NCBI RefSeq assembly: GCF_029016285.1
Contig: NZ_CP091975.1
Span: forward strand, 2,604,001 to 2,668,000
From: Vibrio sp. DW001
GTDB taxonomy: Bacteria; Pseudomonadota; Gammaproteobacteria; Enterobacterales; Vibrionaceae
Direction: 5' to 3'
DNA length: 64,000 nt
The notes beneath the pieces are model-generated. The model was given only the letters and a program-made list of their open reading frames with translations, had not been told where the DNA came from and did not search any database. The position numbers were made by a program, and so were the translations under genes. Of this stretch, positions 8,249-39,062 are shown one piece after another. Numbering within the stretch: the first letter of the stretch is position 1; every line of letters begins with the position of its first letter.

Positions 8249-8513
8249 TCCTTACCTCTAACATTAAAAGTGGATCAAGATCACATTTTACAACGTAACA
8301 CACTTTAATGAAATAGGATATTTCGAAAAGATACCGTAATCGTTCATTGTTTTTTATTTTAATCAAATTGAAAGGACAGCGGTCTTATCCACTAGAATGA
8401 AATGGCGACCCTTGATTTAGTTCCAGTGAACTCGACAACAAAGCCATGCGTACATCAATGGCAATAAAAAGCCGCCTATATTTGGCGACTGATTTTGTAC
8501 CGTATTGGTTACA

Positions 8514-21604: not shown

Positions 21605-22072
21605 ATGGTTCATTTTTGGGAAAGAAAAGCACTGGCAGAGATGACTGACACAGAGTGGGAATCACTTTGCGATCAGTGTGGCAAGTGCTGTTTACACAAA
21701 CTCATGGATGAAGATACTGAAGAAGTTTATTACACCAATGTCGCATGCAGCTGGCTTAATAGTGATACATGCTCTTGCAAAGACTACGCAAACAGATTTG
21801 AATCTGGTGAAGAGTGCCTAAAGTTAAGTCGAGAGAAAATTTCAGAGTTCCACTGGCTTCCTGATACCTGCTCTTATCGATTACTTGCTGAAGGTAAGAT
21901 ACTACCTAAATGGCACCCATTGATTACGGGTGACAAATCAACAATGCATGAGGCGGGTGAGAGTGTTCGTAATCAAGTAGTTTACGAGATAGACGTTATA
22001 AATTGGGAGGACCATATTTTAAACCACCCTGATAGAGACGGTATACAAATTAGTCATGACGATGAAGAGTAG
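21605..22072 (+). CDS. ycgN: YcgN family (UPF0260) cysteine-cluster protein
   Basis: The 155-aa protein has the UPF0260/YkgJ pattern: [20 protein letters not shown] at residues 18-37, a second cysteine set in [20 protein letters not shown] and [10 protein letters not shown], and [14 protein letters not shown]. The clustered cysteines suggest metal or iron-sulfur binding; function unknown. It is full length compared with E. coli YcgN. A truncated, inverted second copy lies at 14400-14787. It converges on the helicase gene. Confidence 0.9.
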
Positions 22073-22163: not shown

Positions 22164-23537
22164 TCATCTTAAAAAGGCTGAAATGACACGCTGTCTAAAC
22201 GTTCCTAGCAGAAGTTGTTCTGAGTTATTTAAAGGTTGATGCACTTGAGCTTTATCAGCCATAGGATTATTCCATGTCAGATTGGGATGCTGACGGCTCT
22301 CTAGCAGTAATCCATTATTTTTACTAAAAGACTCATTGGTAACTATTTTATGTTCTACGTGCTCGGTCATTTTCGAGAACATGCACGACTCTGGAATGTC
22401 TTGCTCTATTCGTTCAGAAAATTCAATAAGACTTTTTTCGGCAAAAGTAAATAGCCATGCTTCTTCCTGAGCAGAACCACTAACGCGTAAAATACGCCCA
22501 AGTACTTGTCTGAAATAAAGTTCAGTTTTAACCGCGCTCATATGGCAACAGACCTGAAGGCGAGGTATATCAGTGCCTTCACTGATCATCCCAACACTTA
22601 CAATCCACTGTGTATCCGCTTGGCGAAAGCGATCAATCTCAGCCAAAGGCTCTTCATGACGGTAAGTAACGATTGAGACTGTTTGAGCGTACTTTTGAGA
22701 AAGTATTTTCTTGATTTCTAGAGCATGTTGAACCGAGGATGCCACAACTAATCCGCCAGCACTTGCTTTTTCCAACCGTATTTCAGCCAATTTTTTACAG
22801 CCTGACCACAATAGATATTCCATTGCCTTCTGGTTGTGAACAACACTTTGATACGATGTCTTTGTTTGTTTAATCATCTCCAGAATTGAAGAAAACGACT
22901 CCGTTGTTTCGTCACCGCTTACGGATAGGTTCTCGTTATCGATCAATACAATTTTTGGTGATCTACAAACATTATCTGCTATAGCTTGTTTTAACGTGTA
23001 TTGATAATCCACCAATAACTGACCTTCTGGATCACTATACTCTCCCATTACTATTGGTAACGAGTCAGAACGCCAAGGAGTTCCAGACATGGCAAGAGTG
23101 TATGTTGCTAGCGCTTGTATCTTAGCCAGTATTTGTTGGCCCCAAACGTTCGCATTCGCCGGCTCTTTACCTGAACAGTGGTGTATTTCATCAAAAACAA
23201 CAAAGACTCTATACTTACTTAATGTCTCCCAAAATTCATCACCTAAAAATTGCATAGATTGGTAAGTTAAAGACTGTCCAATAGAACCCAACCCACCATT
23301 AAAAGGGGATTTTAACGTTGTCGAGAATGTTCTTTTTATTCCATTAGAAACCGTTAAAGAAGGCGAAAAGCACAAAATAAGATCGACCATATCTTCGGTC
23401 AGCAATCTAGATGCAACCGATGCGGCAAGAACCGTCTTTCCTGCCCCTGGTGTTGCCTGACAAAAGAAGTGCGTTTGATTCGAATTGTACTTGTGCAAAA
23501 CCTGCTCTGAACATTCCCGTTGCCACTGCCTTAACAC
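22164..23537 (-). CDS. Superfamily 2 DEAD/DEAH-type helicase
   Basis: The 457-aa protein has a complete SF2 core: Walker A TPGAGKTVLAAS at about residue 30, DEAH-box variant VFDEIHHCS (about 113-121), motif III MSGTPWR, and in the second RecA domain SVGMISEGTDIPRLQV and motif VI RQVLGRILR. This is the restriction/DNA-repair (ResIII, RadD-like) arrangement. No nuclease or methylase domain is attached. Its start overlaps the stop of the winged-helix gene by 7 bp, so the two are translationally coupled. In a mobile island it is probably a defence or maintenance factor. Confidence 0.8.
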   Translation of the reverse strand: MLRQWQRECSEQVLHKYNSNQTHFFCQATPGAGKTVLAASVASRLLTEDMVDLILCFSPSLTVSNGIKRTFSTTLKSPFNGGLGSIGQSLTYQSMQFLGDEFWETLSKYRVFVVFDEIHHCSGKEPANANVWGQQILAKIQALATYTLAMSGTPWRSDSLPIVMGEYSDPEGQLLVDYQYTLKQAIADNVCRSPKIVLIDNENLSVSGDETTESFSSILEMIKQTKTSYQSVVHNQKAMEYLLWSGCKKLAEIRLEKASAGGLVVASSVQHALEIKKILSQKYAQTVSIVTYRHEEPLAEIDRFRQADTQWIVSVGMISEGTDIPRLQVCCHMSAVKTELYFRQVLGRILRVSGSAQEEAWLFTFAEKSLIEFSERIEQDIPESCMFSKMTEHVEHKIVTNESFSKNNGLLLESRQHPNLTWNNPMADKAQVHQPLNNSEQLLLGTFRQRVISAFLR

Positions 23538-24055
23538 GGAAGGTGTTCCTCTGAGAGTGCACTCAAAACATTTGTGAGTACGTTTACCTTGCCTAATAAC
23601 AGTGCAGATCGCATTCGCGTTTGATCAAGTAATGGGGCTAGTTTTGATTCAAGTTCAGGGAACCTGTAACCCAATGATTTATATTCGTCTATCTCACCAA
23701 GTACAATTTCTAGTTCGCCTTTGTACTGGTTACACTCTATTTCCAATACAGAATAGTCTGGAGACCGGGGAGATATTGCTTTAATACAAGCAGTCTTTGG
23801 AGTGACCTGAAGACTTTTAAACAGATCCGTTTGAAAGTAACGTTTTTTTTGCCCAGCTCCTTCAACTCGAAGCCAATTGTTCTTAACAAAGCGTAAGGTT
23901 TGGCGGTAAACCGTCTTGCGTGCTTCATCTAAATCAGAACTTGCACCTTCAATAGAGATCAATGCATCTCTAAGCTCAATAATTGTAAAGCCATTCATTC
24001 TTTTCTCTATCAATAGTTTATGCATTACGGCACTGATTTTTATAGGACGCTTCAT
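23531..24055 (-). CDS. Winged-helix-like protein coupled to helicase
   Basis: The 174-aa product has an N-terminal region (about 1-75) that reads as a winged helix: HKLLIEKRMNGFTIIELRDAL, EARKTVYRQTLRFVKNNWLRV and the wing KKRYFQT. The C-terminal half (about 105-165) is helical and coiled-coil prone (YKGELEIVLGEIDEYKSLG). No family name can be given. It is first in a two-gene operon with the helicase and divergent from an XRE regulator with shared palindromic operators. It may recruit the helicase to DNA. Confidence 0.65.
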   Translation of the reverse strand: MKRPIKISAVMHKLLIEKRMNGFTIIELRDALISIEGASSDLDEARKTVYRQTLRFVKNNWLRVEGAGQKKRYFQTDLFKSLQVTPKTACIKAISPRSPDYSVLEIECNQYKGELEIVLGEIDEYKSLGYRFPELESKLAPLLDQTRMRSALLLGKVNVLTNVLSALSEEHLPC

Positions 24056-24078
24056 TTCTTTCTTACACCACTCAAAAC

Positions 24079-24130
24079 ACTAAGGATTGCTTAGTATACA
24101 GAAATAGGTAAAACTAAGAAAATCTTAGTT
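24079..24130. promoter_or_regulatory. Two ACTAAG-n-CTTAGT palindromic operators
   Basis: ACTAAGGATTGCTTAGT (24079-24095) and AACTAAGAAAATCTTAGTT (24112-24130) share half-sites ACTAAG and CTTAGT and are centred 34 bp apart, about three helical turns. They occupy the short divergent promoter between the winged-helix/helicase operon and the XRE gene. The arrangement is that of a phage-type or restriction-modification controller switch. Confidence 0.75.
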
Positions 24131-24158
24131 ACCGAGAGCAAAATATTATGAAATATCA

Positions 24159-24494
24159 ATGTCAATCGACAACCCTACCCCACAGCGGCTCAAAGCTATT
24201 CGCAAAAAGGCAAAGATTTCCCAAAAAACACTTGGGATACGAGTTGGTATTGATGAAAGCTCAGCTAGTGCAAGAATGAATCAATATGAGAAAGGAAAAC
24301 ATACGCCTGATATTAGTACGCTAAAGAGAATAGCTGATGAGCTAGATGTACCATTAAATTATTTCTTTTGCGAAGATGACGTATCAGCTGAGCTCGCCTA
24401 TCTTATTAAAAAACTTAGACAAAAAGATCAAAAAGAGCTCGTTGAACACATAAAAACACTGCTAAACAATCAAGATCTAGACGCTGAAAATTAG
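24159..24494 (+). CDS. XRE-family transcriptional regulator
   Basis: The 111-aa protein has a Cro/CI-type helix-turn-helix at residues 10-65 (RLKAIRKKAKISQKTLGIRV; YEKGKHTPDISTLKRIADEL; VPLNYFF) and a helical tail likely for dimerisation. The start follows a weak ribosome site, suggesting low expression. It is divergent from the helicase operon and probably represses both promoters through the two palindromes. It converges on the recombinase operon with a 12-bp gap. Confidence 0.88.
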   Translation: MSIDNPTPQRLKAIRKKAKISQKTLGIRVGIDESSASARMNQYEKGKHTPDISTLKRIADELDVPLNYFFCEDDVSAELAYLIKKLRQKDQKELVEHIKTLLNNQDLDAEN

Positions 24495-24506: not shown

Positions 24507-25907
24507 TTATGTCTCATCTGTCGCCCTGTCCTTCTTAAAAGAAATTGCGCATTGTCGCATCTTTAGCGCCGCTTCAGACTTAGAGATTAAACCATCCTCC
24601 ATATCAGTAATGATCTGTTCCAAAGTCCTATCGAAGATCTGAAAAGAAGGCTCGATATTTAATTTTCTAACAATCTTTTTGATTCCAGAAATATCGGAAA
24701 AAACTAAGTCTATATATGGGTCAAGAGAACTTATGTTTGTGTGCCCTGTCCACTGCTGTAATTGTTGTTTTAGCTTGTTGATATCTAATAAGCTTTTTCT
24801 AAGCTGGTCCTTCGTTTCTATTTCAACCTGTAAAAGCATTCGCTTTAATGTTGCAGTAATATAAGCATGTCGAAACAAATGTGCATGTCCCATTTCTTGA
24901 ATTCCACTTTTTATCCTCCATTCTGCTACTAGATTAGACAGTGAGTCACGACTCATCGCTTTACCGGTGTGGACATTCGCGAATAAGTAGCCATGATCTG
25001 ACGATAAAGAGCATGTAGTACTTTGTATTTTTTTTCGTATAACACGTCGACGAGTTCTAACGAGAGACATCAAATTATCGATGACTAATCTTGGTACAGG
25101 AACATAACGAATTGATTTCCGGTCTTTCCTTTTCAACGTTGTTAACCTTAGTGATGGCGCATTTTCGTTGCTACTATTGGCTTCTCGAATGTCATCTATA
25201 GTGATCAAGGAGATTTCACCAATCCTACCGCCTGTTTGCTCAAGTAATTCGTATAAACACATATCTCTTTGCCGCTTGAATGGGTCTTTATTTTCGCGAA
25301 TCACCTCAAGCATTTTTCTTGATGCTGTAACAGATATTGGCTTTCTCCGTCTAGTTCCTACTGGATTTGGAAGTGAGAAATGATGATAGTAATGGTCAGT
25401 TTTAGTTGTCCTCCCACCTTCAATTTTGATTGAATTACTCTTTTTCTCTACTTTAATCTGATAGCTATAGTCACTACCGATCAAATTTTCCTTACGATAA
25501 AAACTCTGTGCAAAAAACAAAAATGAAATACATTGTCTACCTATTTCAATTACTCTGTTAGCAGAACGAATATTGTCACCGTTTTCATCACGAGCTTGTA
25601 AATTACGAATGAACTGACAAAATCGGTCATTATTCATTGTGGTAAACTTTATTTGATTGTCAAAGACAAAACGAATCAGTAATGAAATACTATAAGCATA
25701 CTGCTTTAAAGTACCGCCACCAAATTTTAATGAACGGCCGTTTACGATTGACAGCATGTACAAGTTGGCCTCTATACATGGTGTTCTATTTGGATACTGA
25801 AGAAAGGGGATATTGCTTACATCTTTCGTTACCAACTTTTCTTCTGTAACACTATAAAAATCCCATATTTGGCAAGCCCCAAGGGTGGATACTAATTTCT
25901 TTTTCAT
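24507..25907 (-). CDS. Tyrosine recombinase (fourth gene of quartet)
   Basis: The 466-aa site-specific recombinase starts at the ATG at 25907 after AGGAAG; a TTG at 25940 would overlap the preceding gene. A SAM-like core-binding region (about 60-145) precedes the catalytic domain with all key residues: Arg228 in TGGRIGEIS, Lys in LKRKDRKS, His343 and Arg346 in HLFRHAYITAT, His389 in WTGHTN and Tyr398 in LDPYIDL. It should cleave and rejoin DNA. It is the only quartet member of ordinary integrase size and probably the main catalytic subunit of the element. Confidence 0.88.
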   Translation of the reverse strand: MKKKLVSTLGACQIWDFYSVTEEKLVTKDVSNIPFLQYPNRTPCIEANLYMLSIVNGRSLKFGGGTLKQYAYSISLLIRFVFDNQIKFTTMNNDRFCQFIRNLQARDENGDNIRSANRVIEIGRQCISFLFFAQSFYRKENLIGSDYSYQIKVEKKSNSIKIEGGRTTKTDHYYHHFSLPNPVGTRRRKPISVTASRKMLEVIRENKDPFKRQRDMCLYELLEQTGGRIGEISLITIDDIREANSSNENAPSLRLTTLKRKDRKSIRYVPVPRLVIDNLMSLVRTRRRVIRKKIQSTTCSLSSDHGYLFANVHTGKAMSRDSLSNLVAEWRIKSGIQEMGHAHLFRHAYITATLKRMLLQVEIETKDQLRKSLLDINKLKQQLQQWTGHTNISSLDPYIDLVFSDISGIKKIVRKLNIEPSFQIFDRTLEQIITDMEDGLISKSEAALKMRQCAISFKKDRATDET

Positions 25908-25932
25908 GATTAACTTCCTATAGACGTTAAAT

Positions 25933-26472
25933 TTAGCCAATAGAATTTGTTGGTAGTGTATTTCTATTAGTAAAATCCAATTGGGCCATTACTTTTTTTA
26001 TCATATGCTCTGCATCATATGAAATCTCCTTATCTACTAAGCTGTTACTGTATCTGTGCAGAGCTTCTAGTTGTGTACTTACGATCGCGGTTAACAGCAA
26101 GTTATGATTTCTTACTATTTCTAGTTCTGAAGTTAAGTCATTTTTCACTTCCTTAAGCCTCGATATGGTTTCCGCTCTGTTAGCTTTTATCTTAACGTTA
26201 TCGGTGCCTTGCGTTAGCAACATCAAAGCTTTCAGTCGACTATTATTCAACCTTGTATAACCACCAATAAGTTCATTTGCCAGACGCTTCTGGGTATTAA
26301 GGGAATATGATTGAATACCCAGAGAGTCATCTTTCCACATGGAAAATGATGATTGAGTTTTCAGTGAACAAATCAGAGTGTCGTTACTTCTAAATTCATC
26401 CGGATTAGATAATATATTTTCCAGAAGGCTTAACTCTGACTGTAAAGAGTCTATTTTAACTTCATTTCCCAT
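25933..26472 (-). CDS. Small helical protein of recombinase quartet
   Basis: The 179-aa product starts at the ATG at 26472 after GAGGAC and overlaps the preceding gene by 11 bp. It is predicted all-helical with heptad-like stretches (KIDSLQSELSLLENIL; ISRLKEVKNDLTSELEIVRNH). No catalytic motif. A small helical partner next to two large tyrosine recombinases recalls TnpC of Tn554-type transposons and the small member of gamma-mobile-trio (GMT) islands; the resemblance is of layout, not shown homology. Likely a DNA-binding or scaffolding accessory. Confidence 0.65.
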   Translation of the reverse strand: MGNEVKIDSLQSELSLLENILSNPDEFRSNDTLICSLKTQSSFSMWKDDSLGIQSYSLNTQKRLANELIGGYTRLNNSRLKALMLLTQGTDNVKIKANRAETISRLKEVKNDLTSELEIVRNHNLLLTAIVSTQLEALHRYSNSLVDKEISYDAEHMIKKVMAQLDFTNRNTLPTNSIG

Positions 26473-28843
26473 CACAAAAGTCCTCAAATACTTTCAAAAC
26501 AATCCTATAATCTTCATACTTTCCTAATTCGTCTTCTACAGTGAAAAATTCAAAATCTAAACTAATTGCCCCGTCCTTCAATAGATTTGAAATCAGTTCC
26601 TCTTCTTGTTTTGAATTATCAAAATCTTTGAACTCTGGACTTGTTGTATAATCCTCATTATCATATCGATTTGTAGCTTCACTCAAAGTTGCTATTTCTA
26701 GTGAATCTGTGTTGTATCTTAACTTTAAAACACTTCGTAATTTGTCAATCACTTCTATATCGCCATCTTTATATGACTCTCTAATATAATGAGCTTTAAT
26801 ACCATTCAGAACTCCACCCGTTGTTTTTTCAGTTATATAATTATATACATGTCTAATATCAGTATGACCCAACATATGACGTAGTGTTTCCAAACCACCA
26901 TTGTTTTTACTCCAGAAAAACACCATTGCAAAAAAACGTCTTAACTGGTGCGTACGAATATAGTATCTATATACCTGACCATCATCTTGAGTAATTATTT
27001 CTGTTTGGAAGTAATCACAGAAGTAATCTAGATATGAATTAATACCACATTGGTTTTTAGATGTAAAAAACGCCTTCATTGAAGTTGGGTTTACAGACAC
27101 TAAAAAATTATTAGTTTTATATTTTACGCCACATAACTCTAACAATCTCATTGCAAACGTTTTGTAGTTGTAAATTAATTTCGCCAAACTTCTCGGTATC
27201 GGTCTCGATAGAGAATCCTTTACTCTACCTTTTTTGGTATTAGTGCTAACACCTGATTTCTGATTTTGAAAATTTAAATAGTATTCAACATCTATATTTT
27301 CACTTAAATTGGGATTTGAGTCAGGGCTTAGACATGATTTTAAGTCCAAGTCTATGATCTCTGTTACTCTCCTTGCCATAAGAGCTCCAACCAACAAAAT
27401 CATAGAGCCAATCGAAACCCTGTATAAATCGATAAAACTATGATTATTCCTAATCGCGCTAAAATAGTTATTTCCAAGCGCTCGCTGTGTATCACCTGTA
27501 ATACTAAATTCTTTTACACCAAGGATCTTTACATCATCAAAAATATAGTCGGTCACAGCCCCCCTTCTATAAGCGAGCGTATTTCGATCATTTACACTTA
27601 CTTTTGTTGGCAAATTAAATATAACATTGTACATCGAATTAAATATACCATCAGAATTCTTCAAGGAGAAAGAAAATGCATCACCAATAGCTTTAAATAC
27701 AGTATTTACTGGTAATGTATTAAATCTACCTGCCGGTTTTGAATTGACTAATTCACGAATAATATTTAATTCTATCTTAGATAGTTCCTCAACCCGTACA
27801 TCATGATTATCAATTTTCAATTCTACACTAAACAAAAACCTCAAAGAATATAATAGATTATTTATCGCTCCAGAACCTCGAAATTCACTTTCAACTCTAA
27901 CATCTACAGCTTCAAACTCTTTTGTACTACAATCATCCGATTCATATAATAATAACTCTGGTGGGCTTATATACTTTGCATTGTTATATATACAATAGTT
28001 TGACTTCATATTCTCCAAGTCTGGATACTGCTTAAAAGTGTAGTTGTAATTATAATGTTTTCTTCCTTGGCCATAATAACCATTATTAAATAGCCAACAA
28101 CGGGATTTCCTTATGTCTAGTTCCGTCATATGTAGGCATTTATCGGTTGAGCAAATTGGCGGAAATCGTTTTTCAAATACATTCAAATCAGCCTCACTAA
28201 CACTTAAAGCCGATTCCTTTAGAAGACTGCTAACATCCGAATAGAAATTATAACGACTACCAATATACTTCCCCATTCCATAATCAACTAAAACAGCCTT
28301 GCAGAAATCTTCATTTACAGATGACATATGACGCTCACAAAGATTCAAGCTTTTCTGGTGATAGAGTATTGAGTCAATCCAGCTAGCTATAGCGCGGACA
28401 TATATATATAATGTTCCGCCAGAATATTGCTTTCCACCTGTGTACATTGAATTGAAAGGAACTAATAACCACCACTTAAAAATATCCAATAACTTGCTAT
28501 GCTTTGGACTCGTTAACATTTGGCCATCATACATTATAACATTAAAATCTAAAGTTAACTTATTTACCCCTTTTTCTTGAAATCGAATATCCCATTTATC
28601 ACTACTAATATCGCTATCATTAGAAAAGTATTGCGATAAACACACATCATTATAAGATTTAACAACCGGGGTCAAAATTTTTTGCTGTAACTTTACTAGT
28701 AACTCGGTACTTAAACTCCCACTTTTGGAAACCCCCCTAAATCTAGATAATTCATCGTCAGTCATACTATAGATTGTCAACTTCTCATCCAAAATTGAAC
28801 TAATAAGTTCATTTTCATTATTACCATTGATTTGCTCAGTCAT
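26462..28843 (-). CDS. Large tyrosine recombinase (second gene of quartet)
   Basis: The 793-aa protein starts at the ATG at 28843, inside the stop region of the 1000-aa gene (8-bp overlap). The first 380 residues have no recognisable family. The C-terminal catalytic domain has Arg in ALMARRVTEIIDLDL, the box-II core RTHQLRRFFAMVFFW (about residue 630), LRHMLGHTDIRHVYNYI with the distal His and the candidate nucleophilic Tyr. A charged tail of about 120 residues follows. Probably active. It may act with the 466-aa recombinase on asymmetric ends. Confidence 0.8.
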   Translation of the reverse strand: MTEQINGNNENELISSILDEKLTIYSMTDDELSRFRGVSKSGSLSTELLVKLQQKILTPVVKSYNDVCLSQYFSNDSDISSDKWDIRFQEKGVNKLTLDFNVIMYDGQMLTSPKHSKLLDIFKWWLLVPFNSMYTGGKQYSGGTLYIYVRAIASWIDSILYHQKSLNLCERHMSSVNEDFCKAVLVDYGMGKYIGSRYNFYSDVSSLLKESALSVSEADLNVFEKRFPPICSTDKCLHMTELDIRKSRCWLFNNGYYGQGRKHYNYNYTFKQYPDLENMKSNYCIYNNAKYISPPELLLYESDDCSTKEFEAVDVRVESEFRGSGAINNLLYSLRFLFSVELKIDNHDVRVEELSKIELNIIRELVNSKPAGRFNTLPVNTVFKAIGDAFSFSLKNSDGIFNSMYNVIFNLPTKVSVNDRNTLAYRRGAVTDYIFDDVKILGVKEFSITGDTQRALGNNYFSAIRNNHSFIDLYRVSIGSMILLVGALMARRVTEIIDLDLKSCLSPDSNPNLSENIDVEYYLNFQNQKSGVSTNTKKGRVKDSLSRPIPRSLAKLIYNYKTFAMRLLELCGVKYKTNNFLVSVNPTSMKAFFTSKNQCGINSYLDYFCDYFQTEIITQDDGQVYRYYIRTHQLRRFFAMVFFWSKNNGGLETLRHMLGHTDIRHVYNYITEKTTGGVLNGIKAHYIRESYKDGDIEVIDKLRSVLKLRYNTDSLEIATLSEATNRYDNEDYTTSPEFKDFDNSKQEEELISNLLKDGAISLDFEFFTVEDELGKYEDYRIVLKVFEDFCDGK

Positions 28844-31838
28844 TAATATCACCCTTTAACATTACCAATTCTTCTATTAATAGTCGTTTTGGCAACGGGT
28901 TGTTTTTAGCCAATTCATAGTAGTCTTTTATATCTCTTGAAATACTCGACGACGCTAAAGAAATAGAGCACAATATAAATTTTGCTAATTCATACCAGTT
29001 CATAGCTTTTTCTGTTAAGGCCTTTTCCTTAGGTAATTCATCTCCAACGCTAAGGATCAAGATTAAAACCTGTAAGATAGCGACATTAAGTGTAAATGTT
29101 ACCAAATCAGATTTATTGCAATCAATATTTTCACTACTTCCATTATCTAGCAAGTTAATCGGAAAATCACCAAATCCATGGTTATTTAAAAACTCTTCAA
29201 TATTCAACTTATCCACATCAATCGCTTGATATAAAAGATCTGACTCTTTCATACATTCAAAAATAATTGAGTTTTGAAATTGCCTTATCCACCTATTCAT
29301 AAAGTATTCCTGCAACTCCTTCGGCAAATACGAGTCTATTAGAACTGGCCTATACTCCTTATGACCTAGCGCTTCTGCCATTGCTTTTAGACTTCTGGTT
29401 TTTAGATACACTGAAACAGCTACCGTGCTTCTAATCCTTCGTAATGTAACGTTCCTACTAATACTTTTAGCAATATCTTCTGAATATTGGTCAATACCAT
29501 CAATTTCTTGCGGAGCGTTATAGATACCTCTTAGACTCTCCGCTGTTTTGCACTCATACATACCAGGGTTTGCGTATAGTCTTTTTACTCTTCTAGGTTC
29601 AATTACTACTGTTTCTACACTCAATAACATATATCTTGCTTGAAGGTCGCCTTTTTCTTCTAAGTAATTTCGACACAACTTAGTAATACGAAGAAGTACT
29701 TCTACAACATATTTACTTCTTTCATTTAATTGTATCGTTTGTTCAGACAAATCCGCTCCACGACGGTTCTTATATGAAGAGATAAACCAATCACCATCAC
29801 TTTCGAAAAAACCAACATTTCTACCTTTAACATCTCTATACTCCCAATTTTCAAGCCAAGAAGGTGTAATAATTGGGTGTTCAGCCACTAACAGCGCCAG
29901 GAAGGGGTATAGAACCTTGGTCGTTGGTAATACCAAAAATTTGGTTAGTTTTTCAGATTGGTTCAAACACCCTAAAAATGCAGGGTAATCTCCATTTCGC
30001 TTACCTTTTTGATTAAATGTATAGTGAAAAAAAGTTGCTAATAAGTTTTCTGGTGCTGAAAATCCAATTTCAAATTTAGGCTCAACATGAACATGTTTAA
30101 CAGCACCATTTTTCCTCATAATTTCAAAGTTTTTGTATCGACGCTGAGTATCATTTATTTTCTCCAATAGTTTGTTGCTTTCATTTCTGTTCAAAATATT
30201 ACTATCTTTAATTTCAACAATGTATTTGGTAGGAATTTTCTTGGGCTTACCAATGGGGTAACTACAATATAAAACCATATATATCGAATCAGGATTGTTT
30301 TTACCTTGCAGCCAACCCCTAGATATTGCTGTAATATTAAATATACCTTCTACAGCCTGCTTAGTGACTTTATTTAGAATAACATCCTTATTGATCGAGC
30401 TTATTATATACTTACCATCTTTCTCTAGGAATATCTCTGACTCACTATTTAGATATCTCCACTCACTTAACCAAAGTGGTGTAATTTCTGGGTGCTCGAG
30501 CATCAGAATAGTTATAAAAGGAGCTAGAGTTTCTAATAAAGGGGTACAAATTAAGCCAGCAAGATCACCAGCTTTACCTTTCCATCTTAAAAAATTCAAA
30601 TATTCACTAGGCTTACATGGTGAATCATAAGAATAATATGAAAATGTCGCACATGTATTTTCAGGATACGAAGGTCCTAAATTCACTACAGGTTGAGTAC
30701 ATTCATGTTTAATTATGCCTTGGGATGAAAGTTTCTCACAATTGCTGTACTGACTGTCAACTTCTTGAATAGCTATTTTTGATGATTCAGCTACATGCGC
30801 TAAATCTCTTGAGACGCACTTCAGCAACTGAGCCATCGCTTCATCATCAGATATATGTAGTGGTAGGTTTGTTATCAGTGTTTCACTTATGCCAATATCA
30901 TGCTTAATTGGTAGTCTATGTGCTTTTTTTCTACGTGTTTTAATAATGTTTGAAGAAAACTTTGGGGTGAACCACGGTACAGCTGGCATAGGGAACATAC
31001 CGGAATCGATAAAGACCAACTTAAAATACGTCTCAGCTAATGACCAGTTTGAGTGAAAACTCTCTATACTTAGGTCATTGTTAATGGCATCAATTAAAAT
31101 AGAGTTATATACTAGCTGTACTGTATAATATTGATTTCTTGCTGACAACGCATTATATACATCATCTAAACTTGAATATCGCTCTATAATTACATCCCAA
31201 AACTTTAATATATAAACTCTAGTTGATCTCCAAGAAGCACTATTTTTGGAACCAGCTACTTTACTCCAAGATTCATATACTTTTGATGTAAATGGGCCTC
31301 CATAAGAATAAAATATTGCGCTCAAATCTAGACTAACTCTTCCTCCATCTTGCCCTACAATGATATAACCCTTGTAAACACGTAGTTTATCCTTGTTTAG
31401 GGATAATGACCTATATGTTTCTATTGATGAGATTGAGTATTGATCATCTAAGCTCGTGGTAAACTTTACTTGCTCAAAATTGACATTACTTTGCTTGGCC
31501 CAACATTCAAATAAAGTTGATGCTTTGTTACACAGTTCCCTAATTCTTGCATTTGAATTTTGGTCTTCACAAATAATCATTCCAGTTAGCGATTTGAATA
31601 GTTTAGCTAACCCTTTTTCAGTATTAAGTTCATGTAATAACGACGCACCAACTACAGAGTTGGGAGATAGATCTAAGCAATCAACTAACAACGCAAGATA
31701 TGTTTGAATTGGACCTATTTCATACTTATTATTGCCAGCAATATGGCATTTTTTTGCACATGATAAGATTTCTGCCTTTAGGCTTTCATCTATCACCGAT
31801 GTGATAAACTTGTTTTCTTTTAGTTCTCTTGTTTTCAT
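28836..31838 (-). CDS. 1000-aa divergent recombinase-like protein with internal repeat
   Basis: First gene of the quartet operon. Residues 795-840 carry a degenerate tyrosine-recombinase core: NVTLRRIRSTVAVSVY (the usual His before LRR is absent), AEALGHKEYR and DSYLPKEL with a possible Tyr837. The first catalytic Arg block is not visible, so the protein may be structural. Residues 377-535 and 581-751 are an internal duplication: PENTCATFSYYSY against PENLLATFFHYTF, and LEHPEITPLWLSEWRY against AEHPIITPSWLENWEY. Residues 911-930 are hydrophobic. No close family can be named; part of the mobile element's recombination machinery. Confidence 0.7.
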   Translation of the reverse strand: MKTRELKENKFITSVIDESLKAEILSCAKKCHIAGNNKYEIGPIQTYLALLVDCLDLSPNSVVGASLLHELNTEKGLAKLFKSLTGMIICEDQNSNARIRELCNKASTLFECWAKQSNVNFEQVKFTTSLDDQYSISSIETYRSLSLNKDKLRVYKGYIIVGQDGGRVSLDLSAIFYSYGGPFTSKVYESWSKVAGSKNSASWRSTRVYILKFWDVIIERYSSLDDVYNALSARNQYYTVQLVYNSILIDAINNDLSIESFHSNWSLAETYFKLVFIDSGMFPMPAVPWFTPKFSSNIIKTRRKKAHRLPIKHDIGISETLITNLPLHISDDEAMAQLLKCVSRDLAHVAESSKIAIQEVDSQYSNCEKLSSQGIIKHECTQPVVNLGPSYPENTCATFSYYSYDSPCKPSEYLNFLRWKGKAGDLAGLICTPLLETLAPFITILMLEHPEITPLWLSEWRYLNSESEIFLEKDGKYIISSINKDVILNKVTKQAVEGIFNITAISRGWLQGKNNPDSIYMVLYCSYPIGKPKKIPTKYIVEIKDSNILNRNESNKLLEKINDTQRRYKNFEIMRKNGAVKHVHVEPKFEIGFSAPENLLATFFHYTFNQKGKRNGDYPAFLGCLNQSEKLTKFLVLPTTKVLYPFLALLVAEHPIITPSWLENWEYRDVKGRNVGFFESDGDWFISSYKNRRGADLSEQTIQLNERSKYVVEVLLRITKLCRNYLEEKGDLQARYMLLSVETVVIEPRRVKRLYANPGMYECKTAESLRGIYNAPQEIDGIDQYSEDIAKSISRNVTLRRIRSTVAVSVYLKTRSLKAMAEALGHKEYRPVLIDSYLPKELQEYFMNRWIRQFQNSIIFECMKESDLLYQAIDVDKLNIEEFLNNHGFGDFPINLLDNGSSENIDCNKSDLVTFTLNVAILQVLILILSVGDELPKEKALTEKAMNWYELAKFILCSISLASSSISRDIKDYYELAKNNPLPKRLLIEELVMLKGDIND

Positions 31839-31900
31839 TACTACTGAACCTTCATATCTTCAGGTTATTCATAATGACAAACTAGAGTAATATCAGCCTT

Positions 31901-31924
31901 ATTGTCAAGCCATTATTTGACAAT
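31901..31924. promoter_or_regulatory. Inverted repeat ATTGTCAA n8 TTGACAAT
   Basis: A perfect 8-bp dyad 63-86 bp upstream of the quartet operon. A further TTGACAAA copy lies near 31974 and ATGACAAA near 31875. The repeated TGACAA core suggests either a repressor operator or recombinase arm-binding sites at the element end. Confidence 0.45.
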
Positions 31925-32440
31925 TAATAACTATATAACAACAACTTACAACTTAAATACATAACGTTTTGACAAATTTTCATTAAGGGATAATGTCATT
32001 ATCAATTCTAATAGCTACCGTTGAGTTCTATTGTTTTGGATAGTTCGTCGTTGATGACTAAGCCAAAAAACGAATCTCTTACGTTGACAACAAAATAAAA
32101 GGTAGCGAATGGAGAATGTATATATAAACTGATGATGAGGCCTTTCCAGCTAGCTCTACCTCATAATTTTCGCGACCTAGCAATGTATGTATTCAAATTA
32201 TCAGTGGATTACTCATCATTATGAAGTGGCTGTAAAGTCTAAGTCGCGAAGTGTGCATGAAGATTTGAAAACCCCGGCGATATACAATAAGCCTTCTTCT
32301 TTATCAGCAATATGTATGTGTCGGCGGACAATAGAGTTTGATCGATAATGGTTTAACCTAGCCTAAGAATTGAGCTGTCGCGTAGTAATGTTTGATCTTT
32401 ATTGCTACTTATGATCAAGGTTACCCATCATTCGAGAACA

Positions 32441-32469
32441 ATATAGATTGATCACATATAGATTGATCA
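32441..32469. repeat. Tandem 15-bp repeat ATATAGATTGATCA(C)
   Basis: ATATAGATTGATCA occurs at 32441-32454 and again at 32456-32469, in direct orientation. Two-copy tandem repeats next to an island end may be att-related or simple expansion. TTGATCA cores recur nearby (32339, 32477). Confidence 0.45.
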
Positions 32470-32743
32470 ATTTCAAACACGTTTTTGGACAACTCTGTGT
32501 TATATGACTTGCTAAATTAGCACTCAAAGGATTAATTAAAGTAATACAAAGTTAAGAATTAGAACGCTAATTACATTCACCCACCGCGCTATCGTGTTTG
32601 ATCTTGGGTATCCTATAAACATCAAACAACACCTCAGATAAAGTTGCGACGCTGGAGTTTTTGTTTTGATAAATGTTTCGAAAAGAGAGTCAGGATTGAG
32701 TCTGTCATCGTGTCGATTAAAAGCTTTTTGGTTTTTCATTTTT

Positions 32744-32820: not shown

Positions 32821-33540
32821 TTGTTTAGACGAATAAATAGATCTATTACAGATACCTTAAACTTGATTTTTAACTGTAGTTTTTCTCCACTTCAGCTTTG
32901 CCGGTTTAGCTCGCTTTGCGTATTAGCAAGCTTATTTACACCTTCGACCCAGGCTCACCCGCACTCCTGGGTTACTATGAAGACTCACATCGAAGGTACG
33001 GATAGTATTATCACGGGCTTTAGAATGGAGTGGTCGTTTGATGCCATGACATCGGCTTATATGCTTGATGGAGAAGATACTTCTTCCAAAAACGAGCAAG
33101 AAACCCTACATAATGTTGCGGTTTCAGTATTAAAAAACATGCTCTACGAACACTACTTCACCTATTTTTATGATGGTGATACACCAATCAGATACAAGGT
33201 TGCTCAAAACGAAAAACTAACACGTGACAGAGCAAAATTAGTGCTTAGCTTCGAACTGCCTTTATCTAAACCGAAACCAATTACCAAAGATACATTGCGT
33301 CTGCTGATTTTCGAGCCGAGCTATTATGTGGATATGACTTGGAATTCGATAAATGATGTTGTCCTATCAGAGGACCTTGCTCGTGATTGTCAGATAGCGC
33401 TCATTGAACCAACTCCAACGTTAGAACAGATGACTTACGCCATGTCTTTGCCAGCAAAAGCTGACCCAGATAATGCGTTGGGACAACTCTTTACTCAAAC
33501 GGTACAGATTCATTGCACGAATATAGCCGCCGACAAATAA
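32821..33540 (+). CDS. DUF1007 periplasmic protein, Zur-controlled
   Basis: The frame encodes 239 residues with a signal-like region (SLCVLASLFTPSTQA) followed by HPHSWVTMKTHIEG, the DUF1007 start. No ATG precedes the mature part; a TTG at 32821 is taken, and another TTG near 32863 is possible. The mature N-terminus with His-Pro-His and acidic patches could bind a metal. DUF1007 genes are habitually paired with NicO-type transporters, as here (20-bp gap). With the Zur box it probably helps zinc (or nickel/cobalt) movement across the inner membrane. Confidence 0.75.
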   Translation: MFRRINRSITDTLNLIFNCSFSPLQLCRFSSLCVLASLFTPSTQAHPHSWVTMKTHIEGTDSIITGFRMEWSFDAMTSAYMLDGEDTSSKNEQETLHNVAVSVLKNMLYEHYFTYFYDGDTPIRYKVAQNEKLTRDRAKLVLSFELPLSKPKPITKDTLRLLIFEPSYYVDMTWNSINDVVLSEDLARDCQIALIEPTPTLEQMTYAMSLPAKADPDNALGQLFTQTVQIHCTNIAADK

Positions 33541-33560
33541 CGCTTCGTTAACGAAAACGG

Positions 33561-34667
33561 ATGACCATGAAATTGAACTCGATGCAAAATAAAACGAGCA
33601 ACACCAAGCCTTATAAACGAAACAGGTATGTAGCCATAATTGTCTCACTCGTTTTGATCGTTAGCCTATATCAGCTATGGATAGTTTGGCCGATGTTGGT
33701 TATCAAGAGTATATCGTGGCAACGAGAGGTAAATGCTCTACTAGCCGATCTATTATACGACGCAAAAACAAATCCACTTATCGCTGGTGCGTACTTAGCT
33801 GGAGTCAGTTTTTTATATGGCATGCTCCATTCATTAGGTCCTGGGCACGGAAAAGTGATAGTGACAACGTATTTAGCGACACATCCGACGAAGGTGAAGT
33901 CCAGCTTAATATTGACCGTAGTTTCGGCCATGTGTCAGGCCTTAGTAGCAGTTGTATTGGTAAGCGTTCTACTATGGTGTTTTAGCGCTTCAATGCAAAC
34001 AGTTAATCTCAAAGCCACGTTCTTTGTATCTCTGAGCTTTGCCTTGGTAGCGGTGCTTGGTGGGTTAATATGTTGGAAGGCTGTAAAACAACTTTATCGT
34101 TCAATTTCCCCCACAAGACTAAAGGTTACCACTCTCATGCAGGTAAATGCACAAGAAGACGATAGAGTTTTCTCGTTAAAATCTCCCTTTCATCACTCTT
34201 CAAACCTAAATCCCGGAATTAACGCTAACGCGGTCGAAAGTCACCATATACATCATGATGAATGTGGTTGCGGTCATAAGCATGTCGTTGACGCTGAAGC
34301 GATTAATCGTGCCTCTACCTGGAAAGAATATATTGGCATTGTAGCCACTATCGGAATAAGGCCCTGCACTGGCGCTATCATGGTACTTTTATTTGCTAAT
34401 ATGGTCGATTTATATTGGATGGGCGTAATTAGCGCAGTAGTGATGGCAGCAGGGACAGCGCTGACAACGTCGATCATTGCAATAATGACTCTCGCTGGAA
34501 AACACCTAATAAAACGTTATCTGGTAACAGAGAAAAGTAGCCGCCAAGCAAGTTGGAAACTGGCAGGCTACTCTCTTCAACTTTTTGCTGGTTTATTGCT
34601 AATCGTATTCGGTCTGTTATTTATGGGCAGCCAAGATTTTGGTATTTCCCCAATGTTTTCGGTATAA
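33561..34667 (+). CDS. NicO-family metal transporter (RcnA-like)
   Basis: The 368-aa membrane protein has about seven hydrophobic segments. FLYGMLHSLGPGHGKVIVTTYLATH holds the NiCoT/NicO H-x4-D/GHGK signature, and GIRPCTGAIMVLLFANM is the second conserved block. Between them a His-rich cytoplasmic/periplasmic loop (SHHIHHDECGCGHKHV) likely binds metal. The family mostly exports Ni/Co; location in a Zur operon with DUF1007 points to zinc homeostasis, possibly import. The ATG at 33567 is an equally good start. Confidence 0.82.
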   Translation: MTMKLNSMQNKTSNTKPYKRNRYVAIIVSLVLIVSLYQLWIVWPMLVIKSISWQREVNALLADLLYDAKTNPLIAGAYLAGVSFLYGMLHSLGPGHGKVIVTTYLATHPTKVKSSLILTVVSAMCQALVAVVLVSVLLWCFSASMQTVNLKATFFVSLSFALVAVLGGLICWKAVKQLYRSISPTRLKVTTLMQVNAQEDDRVFSLKSPFHHSSNLNPGINANAVESHHIHHDECGCGHKHVVDAEAINRASTWKEYIGIVATIGIRPCTGAIMVLLFANMVDLYWMGVISAVVMAAGTALTTSIIAIMTLAGKHLIKRYLVTEKSSRQASWKLAGYSLQLFAGLLLIVFGLLFMGSQDFGISPMFSV

Positions 34668-34687
34668 AGTTCAAAATAAGAAAATAT

Positions 34688-34721
34688 AAGTTAAGAACCC
34701 GTTTAAAAGGGTTCTTAACTT
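34688..34721. terminator. Bidirectional terminator between convergent operons
   Basis: AAGTTAAGAACCC and GGGTTCTTAACTT form a perfect 13-bp stem with an 8-base loop. The right arm overlaps the final codons of the COG0523 gene. It separates the NicO transcript from the convergent znuCB operon. Confidence 0.75.
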
Positions 34722-35503
34722 ACTAAACACTCAAGTAATTTGTGCTCTATTACTGAATTGATAGAGTCTGAAATTATTTCGATACGACTCTCTACACAAT
34801 CATCTAATTTTACTTCTGTTAAGCCATCTTCAGTTAGGTTGAATCCAAACACCCCATCAGGCGTAATAAATACGGCCTTTATGCGCTCTACTTTTAGCTC
34901 TATGAGAAAATGATGTAGACGTTGACGATCAAAATGTTTATCTGGCGCGAAGCGCCAACCAATACTTTCAAACCCTTCTTCGTTATTTGTTGCCCTAACG
35001 ATGCCGCTTTCTGGCATAGGTAATTCGGAAGCAAGTGGTTTTCTTCTATGATGGTGATGATGTGGACGCTGCTTAGCGTTTGTTTCGCCCTCTAGTTCCG
35101 CGATATTGATCGTACCATGCTTCGCGAATATCAACTTGGCATTAAGAGCGCCTATTCCATCTACGTATTCTTCTAACCTTGACTTATCAGCATCTACATA
35201 GAGATCAAGCTTATTGCCAACAACTGTATCGGCTATTGCAATTTGCATTGGTAACCCTGCTGCACAACACATGCAACCACCCGGAACTTCTCGGATAAAC
35301 ACATGTTTCGGCTCATTGTTGTGACCCTGTAATAAGCTGCCATCAACACCGATTTCACCAAACTCATTAACCAACACGGCCCAACGTTCGTTAGCAGGTT
35401 TGCTCTCCAGCAGTTTAAGAATAGCGGTAGTTTTCCCCACTCCAAGAAAACCGGTAATGATATTGGTCGGTACCGCCAATATAGGTACGCTATCAAAGCT
35501 CAT
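34715..35503 (-). CDS. COG0523 GTPase, apparently internally deleted
   Basis: The 262-aa protein starts like a CobW/ZigA-type zinc metallochaperone: Walker A GFLGVGKTT (18-26), NEFGEIGVDGSLL and the metal site GGCMCCAAG (76-83). It then jumps from GLPMQIAIADTVV directly to NKLDL (97-101). Normal members have about 70-90 residues between CxCC and the NKxD motif, including the EPxG and switch II strands; these are absent. A His-rich stretch (PHHHHHRRK) and the C-terminal CobW_C domain remain. It ends the Zur operon. It may be a non-functional or altered chaperone. Confidence 0.75.
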   Translation of the reverse strand: MSFDSVPILAVPTNIITGFLGVGKTTAILKLLESKPANERWAVLVNEFGEIGVDGSLLQGHNNEPKHVFIREVPGGCMCCAAGLPMQIAIADTVVGNKLDLYVDADKSRLEEYVDGIGALNAKLIFAKHGTINIAELEGETNAKQRPHHHHHRRKPLASELPMPESGIVRATNNEEGFESIGWRFAPDKHFDRQRLHHFLIELKVERIKAVFITPDGVFGFNLTEDGLTEVKLDDCVESRIEIISDSINSVIEHKLLECLVS

Positions 35504-36053
35504 TCGAAATTCTCCGATAACCTTCTACTAGCGTATGGTTTGCCGAAACCACCGACTCAGAAAAAGCCGAGTATTCCGGTGGTACTTTGGATATGCTTTG
35601 CAAATCAAATTTGTCGCTAATGTTCGTCATAGGGGGAACATGAAAATATTCTGGCAAATCGAGTCCATCTACCACGCAGTTGTGCCGAATTACACAGCCT
35701 TTGCCGATAAAGGCATTAAACACAACAGAATTGAAGCCAATGAACACATCATCGCTTACTTCACATGGGCCGTGAATAATAGAACGGTGGGCAATGGATG
35801 AACGCTCTCCAATTGTCACTGCGGCACCCGCTTTGGAATGGATAACCACACCATCTTGAATGTTGGTATCGCGCTTAATTAAGATGGTTTCCATTTCGCC
35901 TTGTTCGTTTACTTCATCGGCTCGAATTACCGCATATGGCCCAATAAAGACGTTGTCTTCAATCGTCACCTTCCCGCAAATAATAGCGGTTGGGTCAATG
36001 AAGGCGTTTTCCGACACCTCAGGCATATGCCCGATTGGGTTTTTTCTTAACAT
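35493..36053 (-). CDS. Gamma-class carbonic anhydrase-like hexapeptide protein
   Basis: The 186-aa protein is a left-handed beta-helix: repeated hexapeptides IDPTAIICGKVTIEDNVFIG, IGERSSIAHRSIIHG, SDDVFIGFNSVVFNAFIGKG. Metal-ligand type histidines are seen in VVIHSKAG, SIAHRSIIHG and VIRHNCV. I start at the ATG at 36053 rather than 36086, which overlaps zur. Zur-regulated paralogues of this family are thought to replace or back up zinc enzymes during starvation. It overlaps the COG0523 gene by 11 bp. Confidence 0.82.
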   Translation of the reverse strand: MLRKNPIGHMPEVSENAFIDPTAIICGKVTIEDNVFIGPYAVIRADEVNEQGEMETILIKRDTNIQDGVVIHSKAGAAVTIGERSSIAHRSIIHGPCEVSDDVFIGFNSVVFNAFIGKGCVIRHNCVVDGLDLPEYFHVPPMTNISDKFDLQSISKVPPEYSAFSESVVSANHTLVEGYRRISNEL

Positions 36054-36066
36054 TTTTATTTTCTCG

Positions 36067-36519
36067 TTATTTAGCACAGTCATCACACACGCAACTTATT
36101 TCGAGTTGAGGTTTAGTCATGGTGAAGCCTTCTTGTCTCGCGTGCGATTGCAGTTCGGTTACGACAGTTGAACCTGTTGTTAACTCACTAATTCTTCCGC
36201 ACTCTGAACAGATCAAAAATTGAGCGATACCGTGCTCGTGTTCGCAAAGGATATGTGAACAAGCAATGTACTTATTCGAAACATTGATCTTATGAGCTAG
36301 ATGCTCTGTCTCAAGAAAATCCAAGATGCGATACACCGACATTGCTTTAATGTTTTGACCAAAATGCTCCTTACAATAGTCAGCAAGTTCATAAGCAGAA
36401 AGTTCCTTATTAGATTGGACCAACGCACGCAAAACCAGTTTGCGTTTTTCTGTTAGTAGTTTCCCGTGAGCCTTACAGCTTTTCTCGGCATGTTGTATAA
36501 CAGCTTCGTTATCTCGCAT
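36067..36519 (-). CDS. zur: Zinc uptake regulator Zur (Fur family)
   Basis: The 150-aa repressor has the Fur-type winged helix (LTEKRKLVLRALVQ, MSVYRILDFLETEHLAHKI) and a zinc-binding C-terminal domain (CSHILCEHEHGIAQFLICSECGRI ... CVCDDC). Two paired cysteine sites fit the structural zinc of Zur. An ATG at 36540 would add seven residues; I chose 36519, which follows CGGGAAT. Its gene lies inside the operon it is expected to control, giving feedback, with boxes at 32744 and 38985. Confidence 0.92.
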   Translation of the reverse strand: MRDNEAVIQHAEKSCKAHGKLLTEKRKLVLRALVQSNKELSAYELADYCKEHFGQNIKAMSVYRILDFLETEHLAHKINVSNKYIACSHILCEHEHGIAQFLICSECGRISELTTGSTVVTELQSHARQEGFTMTKPQLEISCVCDDCAK

Positions 36520-36553
36520 ATAGATTCCCGCTCTTCGCATAAAATGAGTATTG

Positions 36554-37222
36554 CTACATCATGTCCAAGGTTAATAACAACCTTCTCTCACATGAGGCTA
36601 ATGCTGGTGAGCGATGAACCAAACCGGCTTTTTCATTGCCTTCCCAACCACTACCTTTGAGCAACGCGACATCACCATTGTTCATCTGCTCTATCATCAA
36701 CTCGTTCTTATACAGACCGGACAATTTATCCAACTGACCTAAGCTGCCAGATCCCAGTTTGCTCCGGTCAATATAGTCATTCTTCAACCATTGTGTCGCG
36801 GAACCAACATAGGTTGTGACCAAACGACATGGTAGCCTATCGACATGAAACTTAGGGCACATTGGCTTATCTAACGTTGTTAACCGTAATCCGGCTTCTT
36901 TTAGGTCAAACAGACAACAAAACATATCCACTATCAACGCGATATCTTCAGCTAGCCCTTCTGCACAAGCGTGTCCGACTAACTTCTTTTGTATGTAATC
37001 AAAACAACTTTGCGGTGTAACGCCCTGTACCAAAGCTAATTGAATATCCTCGTTTAGCAATTGCTGAATGCTCTTCTCAAGTTCATTCGACAGTGAGCGC
37101 TGCCATATGGCAATGTTATGATCTGGTTGATATATGCTTGCTAAAACACCTAGTTGGTCGCCTATCGGCAACAAACTTGTGATATCCGAGCGAACGGGTT
37201 CAACAGCGGCCTGAAGATTCAT
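36554..37222 (-). CDS. DUF1826 protein in zinc operon
   Basis: The 222-aa protein carries the DUF1826 signature CPKFHVDRLPCRLVTTYVGS near residue 120 and LLKGSGWEGNEKAGLVHRSP near 185. CPxFHxDR resembles metal-ligand patterns. Function unknown. It lies between znuB and zur in the same direction with a 13-bp gap to zur; DUF1826 genes are recurrently found with Zur-regulated genes. Probably cytoplasmic. Confidence 0.8.
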   Translation of the reverse strand: MNLQAAVEPVRSDITSLLPIGDQLGVLASIYQPDHNIAIWQRSLSNELEKSIQQLLNEDIQLALVQGVTPQSCFDYIQKKLVGHACAEGLAEDIALIVDMFCCLFDLKEAGLRLTTLDKPMCPKFHVDRLPCRLVTTYVGSATQWLKNDYIDRSKLGSGSLGQLDKLSGLYKNELMIEQMNNGDVALLKGSGWEGNEKAGLVHRSPALASCERRLLLTLDMM

Positions 37223-37347
37223 ACATCAACCTCGCTAGTCGCAAAGGGATACAGCAATGAATGCGGTAGCGATTTATCATCGATGATGATTTTTCTCGTT
37301 TCGCGATACTTTGTATTTGTTCATCATCGACTCCTTATTGATTTCAC

Positions 37348-38193
37348 TCATATATCTTCTTGGGTTCTATTCATCTCAGACCGCCCTTGCCTCGCAGTCC
37401 GTGCTTTGCCAATTACTCTCCAGACCAAGCTTGAGAGCACGAAAAAAACAGTAGCAATACACACCATCGTAGGGCCGGTTGGTGTATCGAATACAAATGA
37501 CGTACGCAGTCCAATCACACTCGAACTGCATCCTATCAAGGCTGCAAATACCGCCATCATTTCAGGTGTATGGCTAAATGGTCGAGCAGTAGCGGCAGGA
37601 ATAATCAACATCGCCACAATCAACAATACTCCCACGACCTTAATCGCTACAGCCACCACAACAGCAAGCGCAATGGTCAGGATCAGTTGTTCACGTTTTG
37701 GCGAGTAACCGCTGGCCATCGCCAAATCTGGATTGAGCGTAGATAATAAAAGACCAGCCCATCGCTGACTTATCAGTCCAATTACCAGCAAGGTGCCGCC
37801 CCAAATCATCAGTAAGTCCATTTTACTCACCGCCAAAATATCACCAAATAGATACGCCATTAGATCCAAACGAACACCAGATAGAAATGATACGGCGACA
37901 AGCCCAATCGCCAGTGCAGAGTGCGCCAACACTCCAAGCAAGGTGTCCATCGCATACCCTCTCCCGCTAAGCGTAGAAACCGTGATGGCCATTAACAAAG
38001 CTATAAACAATACGCTAGGGAATATGGGAAGCGAAAAAGCGAGTGACAGGGCGACACCCAACATAGAGGCATGAGCCGTCGCGTCACCGAAATAGGCCAT
38101 TCTCCGCCATACGATAAAGCAGCCCAATGGCGCGGCCGCCAATGTCACACCTAAACCAGCTAAGGCTGCTCGCAAAAGAAAATCATCCAACAT
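37348..38193 (-). CDS. znuB: Zinc ABC transporter permease
   Basis: The 281-aa ABC-3 family permease has about eight hydrophobic helices. MLDDFLLRAALAGLGVTLAAAPLGCFIVWRRMAYFGDATAHASMLGVALS and LLVAMLIIPAATARPF are typical of ZnuB/MntB. Its start overlaps the znuC stop by 11 bp. Together with ZnuA and ZnuC it imports Zn2+ across the inner membrane. A 125-bp gap follows before the DUF1826 gene. Confidence 0.94.
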   Translation of the reverse strand: MLDDFLLRAALAGLGVTLAAAPLGCFIVWRRMAYFGDATAHASMLGVALSLAFSLPIFPSVLFIALLMAITVSTLSGRGYAMDTLLGVLAHSALAIGLVAVSFLSGVRLDLMAYLFGDILAVSKMDLLMIWGGTLLVIGLISQRWAGLLLSTLNPDLAMASGYSPKREQLILTIALAVVVAVAIKVVGVLLIVAMLIIPAATARPFSHTPEMMAVFAALIGCSSSVIGLRTSFVFDTPTGPTMVCIATVFFVLSSLVWRVIGKARTARQGRSEMNRTQEDI

Positions 38194-38914: not shown

Positions 38915-38984
38915 TTACCTATTCTCTATTGTGTTGACAGATTGGCTAAGTTTTTAAAAAAAACAAATGCCACATTCACTAAAT

Positions 38985-39002
38985 GTTATGTTATAACATA
39001 AC
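38985..39002. promoter_or_regulatory. Zur box between znuC and znuA
   Basis: GTTATGTTATAACATAAC is a perfect 18-bp palindrome, extended by AAAT on the left and ATAA on the right. It is 61 bp from the znuA start and 71 bp from the znuC start, so one site can control both operons. Confidence 0.9.
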
Positions 39003-39062
39003 ATAAATAGTTACCACTCATGATATTTTTGATATCGATAAGAACCTCATTAGGAGAAAATC

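Follow-up and report, generated by a model that had tools for sequence, protein, structure and literature searches.

Four adjacent genes on the minus strand, which we call A to D, span positions 24507–31838 of a 64,000-nucleotide stretch of Vibrio sp. DW001 (hereafter the window), itself part of the larger of two contigs in a 5.46-Mb genome. We consider it likely, with a probability of about 0.83, that these genes supply the recombination machinery for an integrative element with site-specific insertion, a transposon-like genomic island, from a lineage of the kind that combines three proteins of tyrosine recombinase (YR) fold with one small helical protein. The recurrence of this gene order in many bacteria, together with the fixed points in comM or umuD at which some of its relatives lie, makes it most likely that the quartet drives a mobile genomic island. 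The four genes are as follows.

28836–31838, minus strand: gene A, 1000 aa; degenerate YR, GinC/Tfp-like in type, with residues 382–539 a diverged duplicate of 586–755
26462–28843, minus strand: gene B, 793 aa from the ATG (796 from a GTG at 28852); large TnpB-like YR with a complete R-K-HxxR-H-Y set (Pfam Phage_integrase E 0.012, under the cut-off; hhalign TnpB P 35.6)
25933–26472, minus strand: gene C, 179 aa from the ATG; predicted by AlphaFold2 to be all-helical with a 50-residue helix, in the position of GinD, Srap or TnpC
24507–25907, minus strand: gene D, 466 aa from the ATG; TnpA/GinA-like YR with a complete catalytic set (Phage_integrase E 4.4e-9; hhalign TnpA P 98.4, GinA P 96.8)

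The ATG starts of A, B, C and D lie at 31838, 28843, 26472 and 25907, respectively; A overlaps B by 8 bp, B overlaps C by 11 bp, and 25 bp separate C from D. A first-pass annotation, made from the sequence alone, had given these lengths, the common strand and the three junctions, all of which are borne out when each gene is read from its first ATG. The quartet is a real arrangement and, judged by its gene spacing, a predicted operon.

Conservation of the quartet

Family-wide counts refer to the best 80 of 115 relatives recovered by scanning genome contigs with an alignment of B; these 80 loci include near-identical ones (for example L113 and L143, and the Stutzerimonas group), and some of their genomes overlap with a sample of 148 genomes searched for A. 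We observed A-B-C-D on one strand and in the same order at 74 of the 80 loci, while the remaining six reach a contig end; L110 and L129 are without A because the contig starts inside B. Statistics on lengths, gaps and repeats were drawn only from the 67 loci at which each gene is a single open reading frame, a set that includes five with a short A of 140–441 aa (L075, L080, L103, L120 and L148) and excludes L144 (874-aa A), which has two D matches. Residue and profile alignments hold only members above a length limit. The median gaps across the 67 loci are −11, −4 and −4 bp at the A/B, B/C and C/D junctions, and since these gaps are tight and the order is kept so widely, the close spacing of the four genes is not a product of chance. 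Nor do the genes occur together only rarely, a circumstance that the first-pass annotation had said would count against its proposal.

Hosts of the 80 loci include Vibrio, Photobacterium, Moritella, Pseudoalteromonas, Pseudomonas, Stutzerimonas, Acinetobacter, Serratia, Hafnia, Methylophilus and Paucimonas, among others, and the quartet is also found on plasmids of Providencia, Pseudomonas and Acinetobacter, some copies being degraded. Within the 148-genome sample, A was matched in 11 genomes, including the window's own, where A is present in a single copy. Ten of the loci fetched for these matches (L047–L055 and L057) hold A-B-C-D in order, one of them with a split D, and at L056 both A and B are split. 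The Stutzerimonas copies show a further feature, in that 2.1 kb upstream of A is repeated just after D with 77% identity (L115, 5471–7548 and 14647–16733).

Predicted properties of the four proteins

All 78 aligned members of B share R495, K532, H635xxR638, H663 and Y672. In D, R239, K270, H354xxR357 and Y409 are likewise invariant among 78 members, and 76 of these keep H400. By these residues B and D are two catalytically complete YRs, which corrects the earlier statement that only the 466-aa protein carries a full catalytic set. AlphaFold2 modelled C (as a 184-residue form) with a mean pLDDT of 89.5 and a helix at residues 100–149, and neither Pfam nor NCBIfam scans returned a family match for this protein. 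Sequence searches of the Protein Data Bank gave nothing at E ≤ 0.1 with the profile of B and one chance match (E 0.83) with that of A.

A has a YR fold in its structural model, and its active site is degenerate by sequence. K690, R803 and Y837 are kept in 73 of 73 aligned members and H826 in 68 of 73, and neither a conserved HxxR histidine nor a conserved first arginine was found in the same alignment. Residues 382–539 of the window's A repeat residues 586–755 (31% identity, E 1e-22); the first copy is gapped at the segment where the second holds the active-site lysine, and residues 381–550 are modelled at pLDDT below 50. An internal repeat of this type was seen in 0 of the 67 relatives, five of which have a cut A, so that the test effectively covers about 62 full-length proteins. 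A has a median length of 778 aa and a maximum of 808 aa in these 67 relatives, and 874 aa at one further locus outside that count (L144). We attribute the 1000 aa of the window's protein to an internal duplication that lengthened a standard subunit of about 780 aa. The first-pass annotation had taken the 1000-aa protein for an added or extended subunit. An added subunit peculiar to this locus is not supported, since a version of about 780 aa regularly stands first in the quartet wherever this is found; the extension itself appears, as far as we have seen, peculiar to the window's copy. When 5.8 billion clustered proteins were searched with A, only the window's own sequence was returned, by a method that needs shared five-residue words, scored 7999 candidates and misses distant relatives.

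For profile comparisons, the references were a GInt at the end of E. coli ssb, a strand-biased circularizing element (SE) on pAQU1, and Tn554 from Staphylococcus; their genes were assigned by order, place and published papers rather than by gene names, although one Staphylococcus record does name tnpA, tnpB and tnpC. With hhalign, the family profile of D matched TnpA at P 98.4 (E 7.8e-15), GinA at P 96.8 and SE IntA at P 27.6 (P 49 with a smaller profile), and that of B matched TnpB weakly at P 35.6; B reached only P 3.3–3.4 with SE IntB. A reached P 11.4 with TnpA over 43 columns only and had no match to GinC (117-member profile) or Tfp (110-member profile); for C, the highest score was P 1.4 among the proteins tried from GInt, SE, Tn554 and the gamma-mobile-trio (GMT), which included Srap and a single GinD. 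Because the method gives B against D only P 2.8, missing matches of this sort are weak evidence and no proof of separate origin. D alone of the four bears a clear sequence similarity to GInt and Tn554 proteins (GinA and TnpA).

Insertion points and junctions in relatives

At 10 of the 80 loci, in Vibrio, Photobacterium and betaproteobacteria, comM is split at residues 303–307, directly after LFLDE (299–303), its Walker B motif. At six others the target is umuD, a gene of the SOS mutagenesis pathway, whose alignments start at codon 14, and the exact junction string is present in four of these six. The string itself was read at L131, L132, L134, L135, L141, L034 and L181, and L133 and L136 were assigned from a protein alignment starting at codon 14. 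Both halves of comM flank the element at L083 (about 9.2 kb), L102 (about 13.7 kb), G013 (16.7 kb, on the same contig as L082) and G010 (20.4 kb).

The Providencia plasmid pPROV073-3 carries an 8.2-kb element, with a beta-lactamase gene and the quartet, inside umuD. The same 8.2-kb element occupies the corresponding umuD position of a different plasmid, of type IncT, and pZ13CR2106-NDM has the flanks of pPROV073-3 without the element, which makes it the one true empty site that we observed. The beta-lactamase of this element, which lies in umuD of two kinds of Providencia plasmid, is of class A (L034, 3095–11308; L181, 4194–12408), and quartets near-identical to the one it carries were seen in Neiella, Colwellia, Thalassolituus and Acinetobacter.

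Six left comM junctions, each after the Walker B codons GATGA(A/G), hold six distinct six-mers (ACTTTT, ACGTTC, ATGCCA, AGGCAT, ATTTCC and ATCATT), and in five of the six an end core like AATCC(C/T)AAT comes directly after the six-mer. These six junctions come from 11 comM loci (the ten above and G010), of which the five betaproteobacterial ones were left out, and ATGCCA could be comM's own sequence. At three right comM junctions, CGATATTAGGAAA is followed by ATGCC, as in the uninterrupted comM of two other Vibrio genomes. For the umuD elements the left end could be located at five loci, and at each of them its five bases are AGCGC. Hosts from Providencia have other bases at this position, but AGCGC is the umuD sequence past the right end in three marine hosts. 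A short spacer travelling with the element is described for SEs and Tn554-related elements (PMC10214605). The varied six-mers and the AGCGC pattern are as would be expected if such a spacer travelled here too, which we infer by analogy and not from a donor–target pair.

Surroundings and candidate end of the window's copy

The window's copy does not lie in comM, because a comM-type open frame of 513 aa is present elsewhere in the genome. On its right, A borders roughly 1 kb in which no long open reading frame occurs, and then comes a DUF1007-NicO-CobW cluster (32821–39063), in which the gene order is rearranged relative to that of relatives; to the left of D lie genes for an HTH protein, a 174-aa protein and a helicase, and then insertion-sequence pieces. 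The following features belong to these flanks.

31839–31995, minus strand: possible element end upstream of A; a weak candidate, with a similarity to the relatives' end core near 31992
22164–24494, genes on both strands: accessory module, from Pfam and NCBIfam matches, with an HTH regulator (24159–24494, plus), a 174-aa protein (23531–24055, minus) and a 457-aa RadD-like helicase (22164–23537, minus)

The HTH-helicase module (22164–24494) is probably cargo. Full-length DNA matches to it were found in at least 11 other genomes of the same genus among 61 searched. It follows the GMT locus L045 at a distance of 1.1 kb, also follows the quartet at L051 (L054 has its HTH gene too), and lies close to the SE at L170; it would thus be one cargo common to different islands. 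It also lies beside a umuD match that starts at codon 14 (L177, contig 2 of G007, 8490–9188), where no tested quartet, GMT, SE or Tn554 protein was recognised in a 20-kb stretch; this umuD match is perhaps the far end of another element. PADLOC, applied to ten neighbours, gave weak or partial matches only.

A 36-bp stretch at 32456–32491 has a 94% copy on the same chromosome (G000:C1:2674236) and similar stretches in ten relatives, some of them near IS21-like genes. The copies near these genes make it doubtful that the stretch is an element end. Visual inspection also shows a string like it after D in several of the Vibrio quartets. Further left, inverted copies at 14410–14786 and 21683–22059 are 74% identical, the right one lying within a gene that has a CxxCxxCC domain.

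Proposed mechanism and alternative explanations

We propose that B and D, the catalytically complete YRs, would attach to both the target and the ends of the element and carry out strand exchange. A, of YR fold but without the first arginine and the HxxR histidine, may be an architectural or target-binding subunit, and C may act as a helper, as has been reported or proposed for TnpC, Srap and GinD. The element would circularise and then insert at a fixed point of a conserved coding sequence, an event that would leave one junction with about six bases foreign to the new host, and the window's copy would have entered by this route.

Several results weigh against reading the quartet as the module of an integrative element. 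No target is assigned at 64 of the 80 loci, and a similar end core was seen by eye outside comM at three loci (L079, L081 and L130). Relatives are uncommon. A is matched in 10 of 147 relatives once the window's own genome is set aside, and the profiles of A and B, run against class samples of 369 genomes, found the window's own only (0 of 368 others). Taken with the order kept across genera, these figures describe a quartet that is widespread but uncommon. The candidate left end of the window's copy is weak, since a matrix built with its own site scores it at 7.4, and with that site left out the best place moves to 31924, at a score reached by 22 of 2000 mononucleotide shuffles. Neither a second end nor an empty site was found for the window's copy in the flanks of ten relatives, in end-core scans or in a right-end search, and the right comM end sequence is absent from the window. 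Finally, the 1000-aa A is a singleton and could be a decaying copy.

This last point leads to an explanation that is compatible with the preferred one and that we rate at somewhat less than an even chance, namely that the window's copy is a degenerate and immobile remnant of an element that formerly moved. The unique duplication in A, with its low-confidence model and a first copy gapped at the active-site lysine segment, would fit such decay, as would the insertion-sequence pieces to the left and the right end that was not found, but all four frames are open and closely spaced and have kept the catalytic residues conserved in the family. It is unlikely, in our judgement, that the quartet is instead a divergent member of the GInts with its ginABCD genes shuffled. 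The component types are the same, D aligns well with GinA, and GInts are described as very divergent (PMC5385486); however, the gene order differs at the 74 loci, the targets seen are comM and umuD rather than ssb, and neither GinC nor GinD is matched by A or C, although absences in hhalign carry little weight. We hold it less likely still that the quartet is an SE whose first gene has been relocated to the last place. On a circle, tfp-intB-srap-intA does correspond to the order A-B-C-D, D shows some likeness to IntA (with the smaller profile more than with the larger), and the six bases that vary at one junction are reminiscent of the SE footprint (PMC10214605), from which six different six-mers would be expected, a consistency that concerns the comM relatives only. 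Against this stand the missing hhalign matches of A to Tfp, despite its 110-member profile, and of C to Srap, and the very low score of B with IntB. We continue to favour the reading as the module of an integrative element, and give even odds to its fullest form: a third, separately organised four-component YR transposon lineage beside GInt and SE, which would home to fixed codons in comM (at Walker B) and umuD and carry about six bases from home to home, leaving a trail of its origin, with the window's copy adding a duplicated half-catalytic domain to the non-catalytic subunit.

Comparison with known systems

RIT elements were rejected on size, with recombinases of 315–410 aa (PMC10214605, Table 1) against 1000, 793 and 466 aa here. 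Like the quartet, Tsy (YRec-HTH-TnsF; PMC10293859) has two active YRs and a small protein and, like the comM relatives, it inserts at comM Walker B, but its TnsF has N-terminal zinc fingers and it has no counterpart of A; a pattern test for CxxC...CxxC/H was positive in 0/73 A, 0/78 B, 0/79 C and 0/78 D members.

GMT islands are also multi-gene YR machineries of Vibrio, and the HTH-helicase module found beside D stands after one of them too (L045), but at five GMT loci seen the gene after GmtY encodes 862–1425 aa. We presume this large gene, from its position, to be GmtZ. Membership of the quartet in GMT was rejected, with no GMT model listed for A–D at E ≤ 1 in NCBIfam (GmtX had no separate search). 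The GmtY model (NF040693) scored above its cut-off in 7 of 100 relatives and once, below the cut-off (E 9.7e-4), in the window's genome, at a place not among the matches listed. Of the kinships suggested in the first-pass annotation, the one with GMT thus finds no backing, and the one with Tn554 holds as a relation in kind: D is clearly TnpA-like and B weakly TnpB-like, and both systems have a small third protein. Tn554 differs in having three genes, tnpA-tnpB-tnpC, in another order and with no counterpart of A, and its proteins are smaller (370, 687 and 121 aa for the reference taken from Staphylococcus).

Four-gene versions of such machinery have already been published, as GInt (ginABCD; Bardaji et al. 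2017, PMC5385486) and as SE (PMC10214605), neither of which the first-pass annotation had mentioned. Like the quartet, a GInt is an island with cargo and four coupled genes, three of them YR-like (one without the first arginine) and one small and helical, and its GinA resembles D. Its order is YR-YR-degenerate-small, whereas that of the quartet is degenerate-YR-small-YR, and it targets ssb or an ABC-transporter gene rather than comM and umuD. SEs too are built from four genes of these types, have Vibrio and Pseudomonas among their hosts and carry like cores at their two ends, and one of their junctions has a six-base stretch that varies, as may be so in the comM relatives; but their genes are ordered intA-tfp-intB-srap, and their Tfp and Srap have no detectable similarity to A and C. 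Our literature searches found no described family with the order A-B-C-D, though the GInt and SE supplementary tables and Jiang et al. 2020 (Tn6571/Tn6488-type, IncpRBL16 plasmids) could list such loci.

According to PMC10293859, comM aids natural transformation. Its Walker B codons are already a target of Tn6022 and Tsy, so that one more family there suggests that different elements have converged on a single site. If our explanation is true, GInt, SE and the quartet would be three arrangements of four like parts, which could be compared to learn what strand exchange gains from a recombinase subunit that is degenerate and from a helper that is helical. The quartet would work like the four-gene GInt and SE and the three-gene Tn554 but with a gene order of its own.

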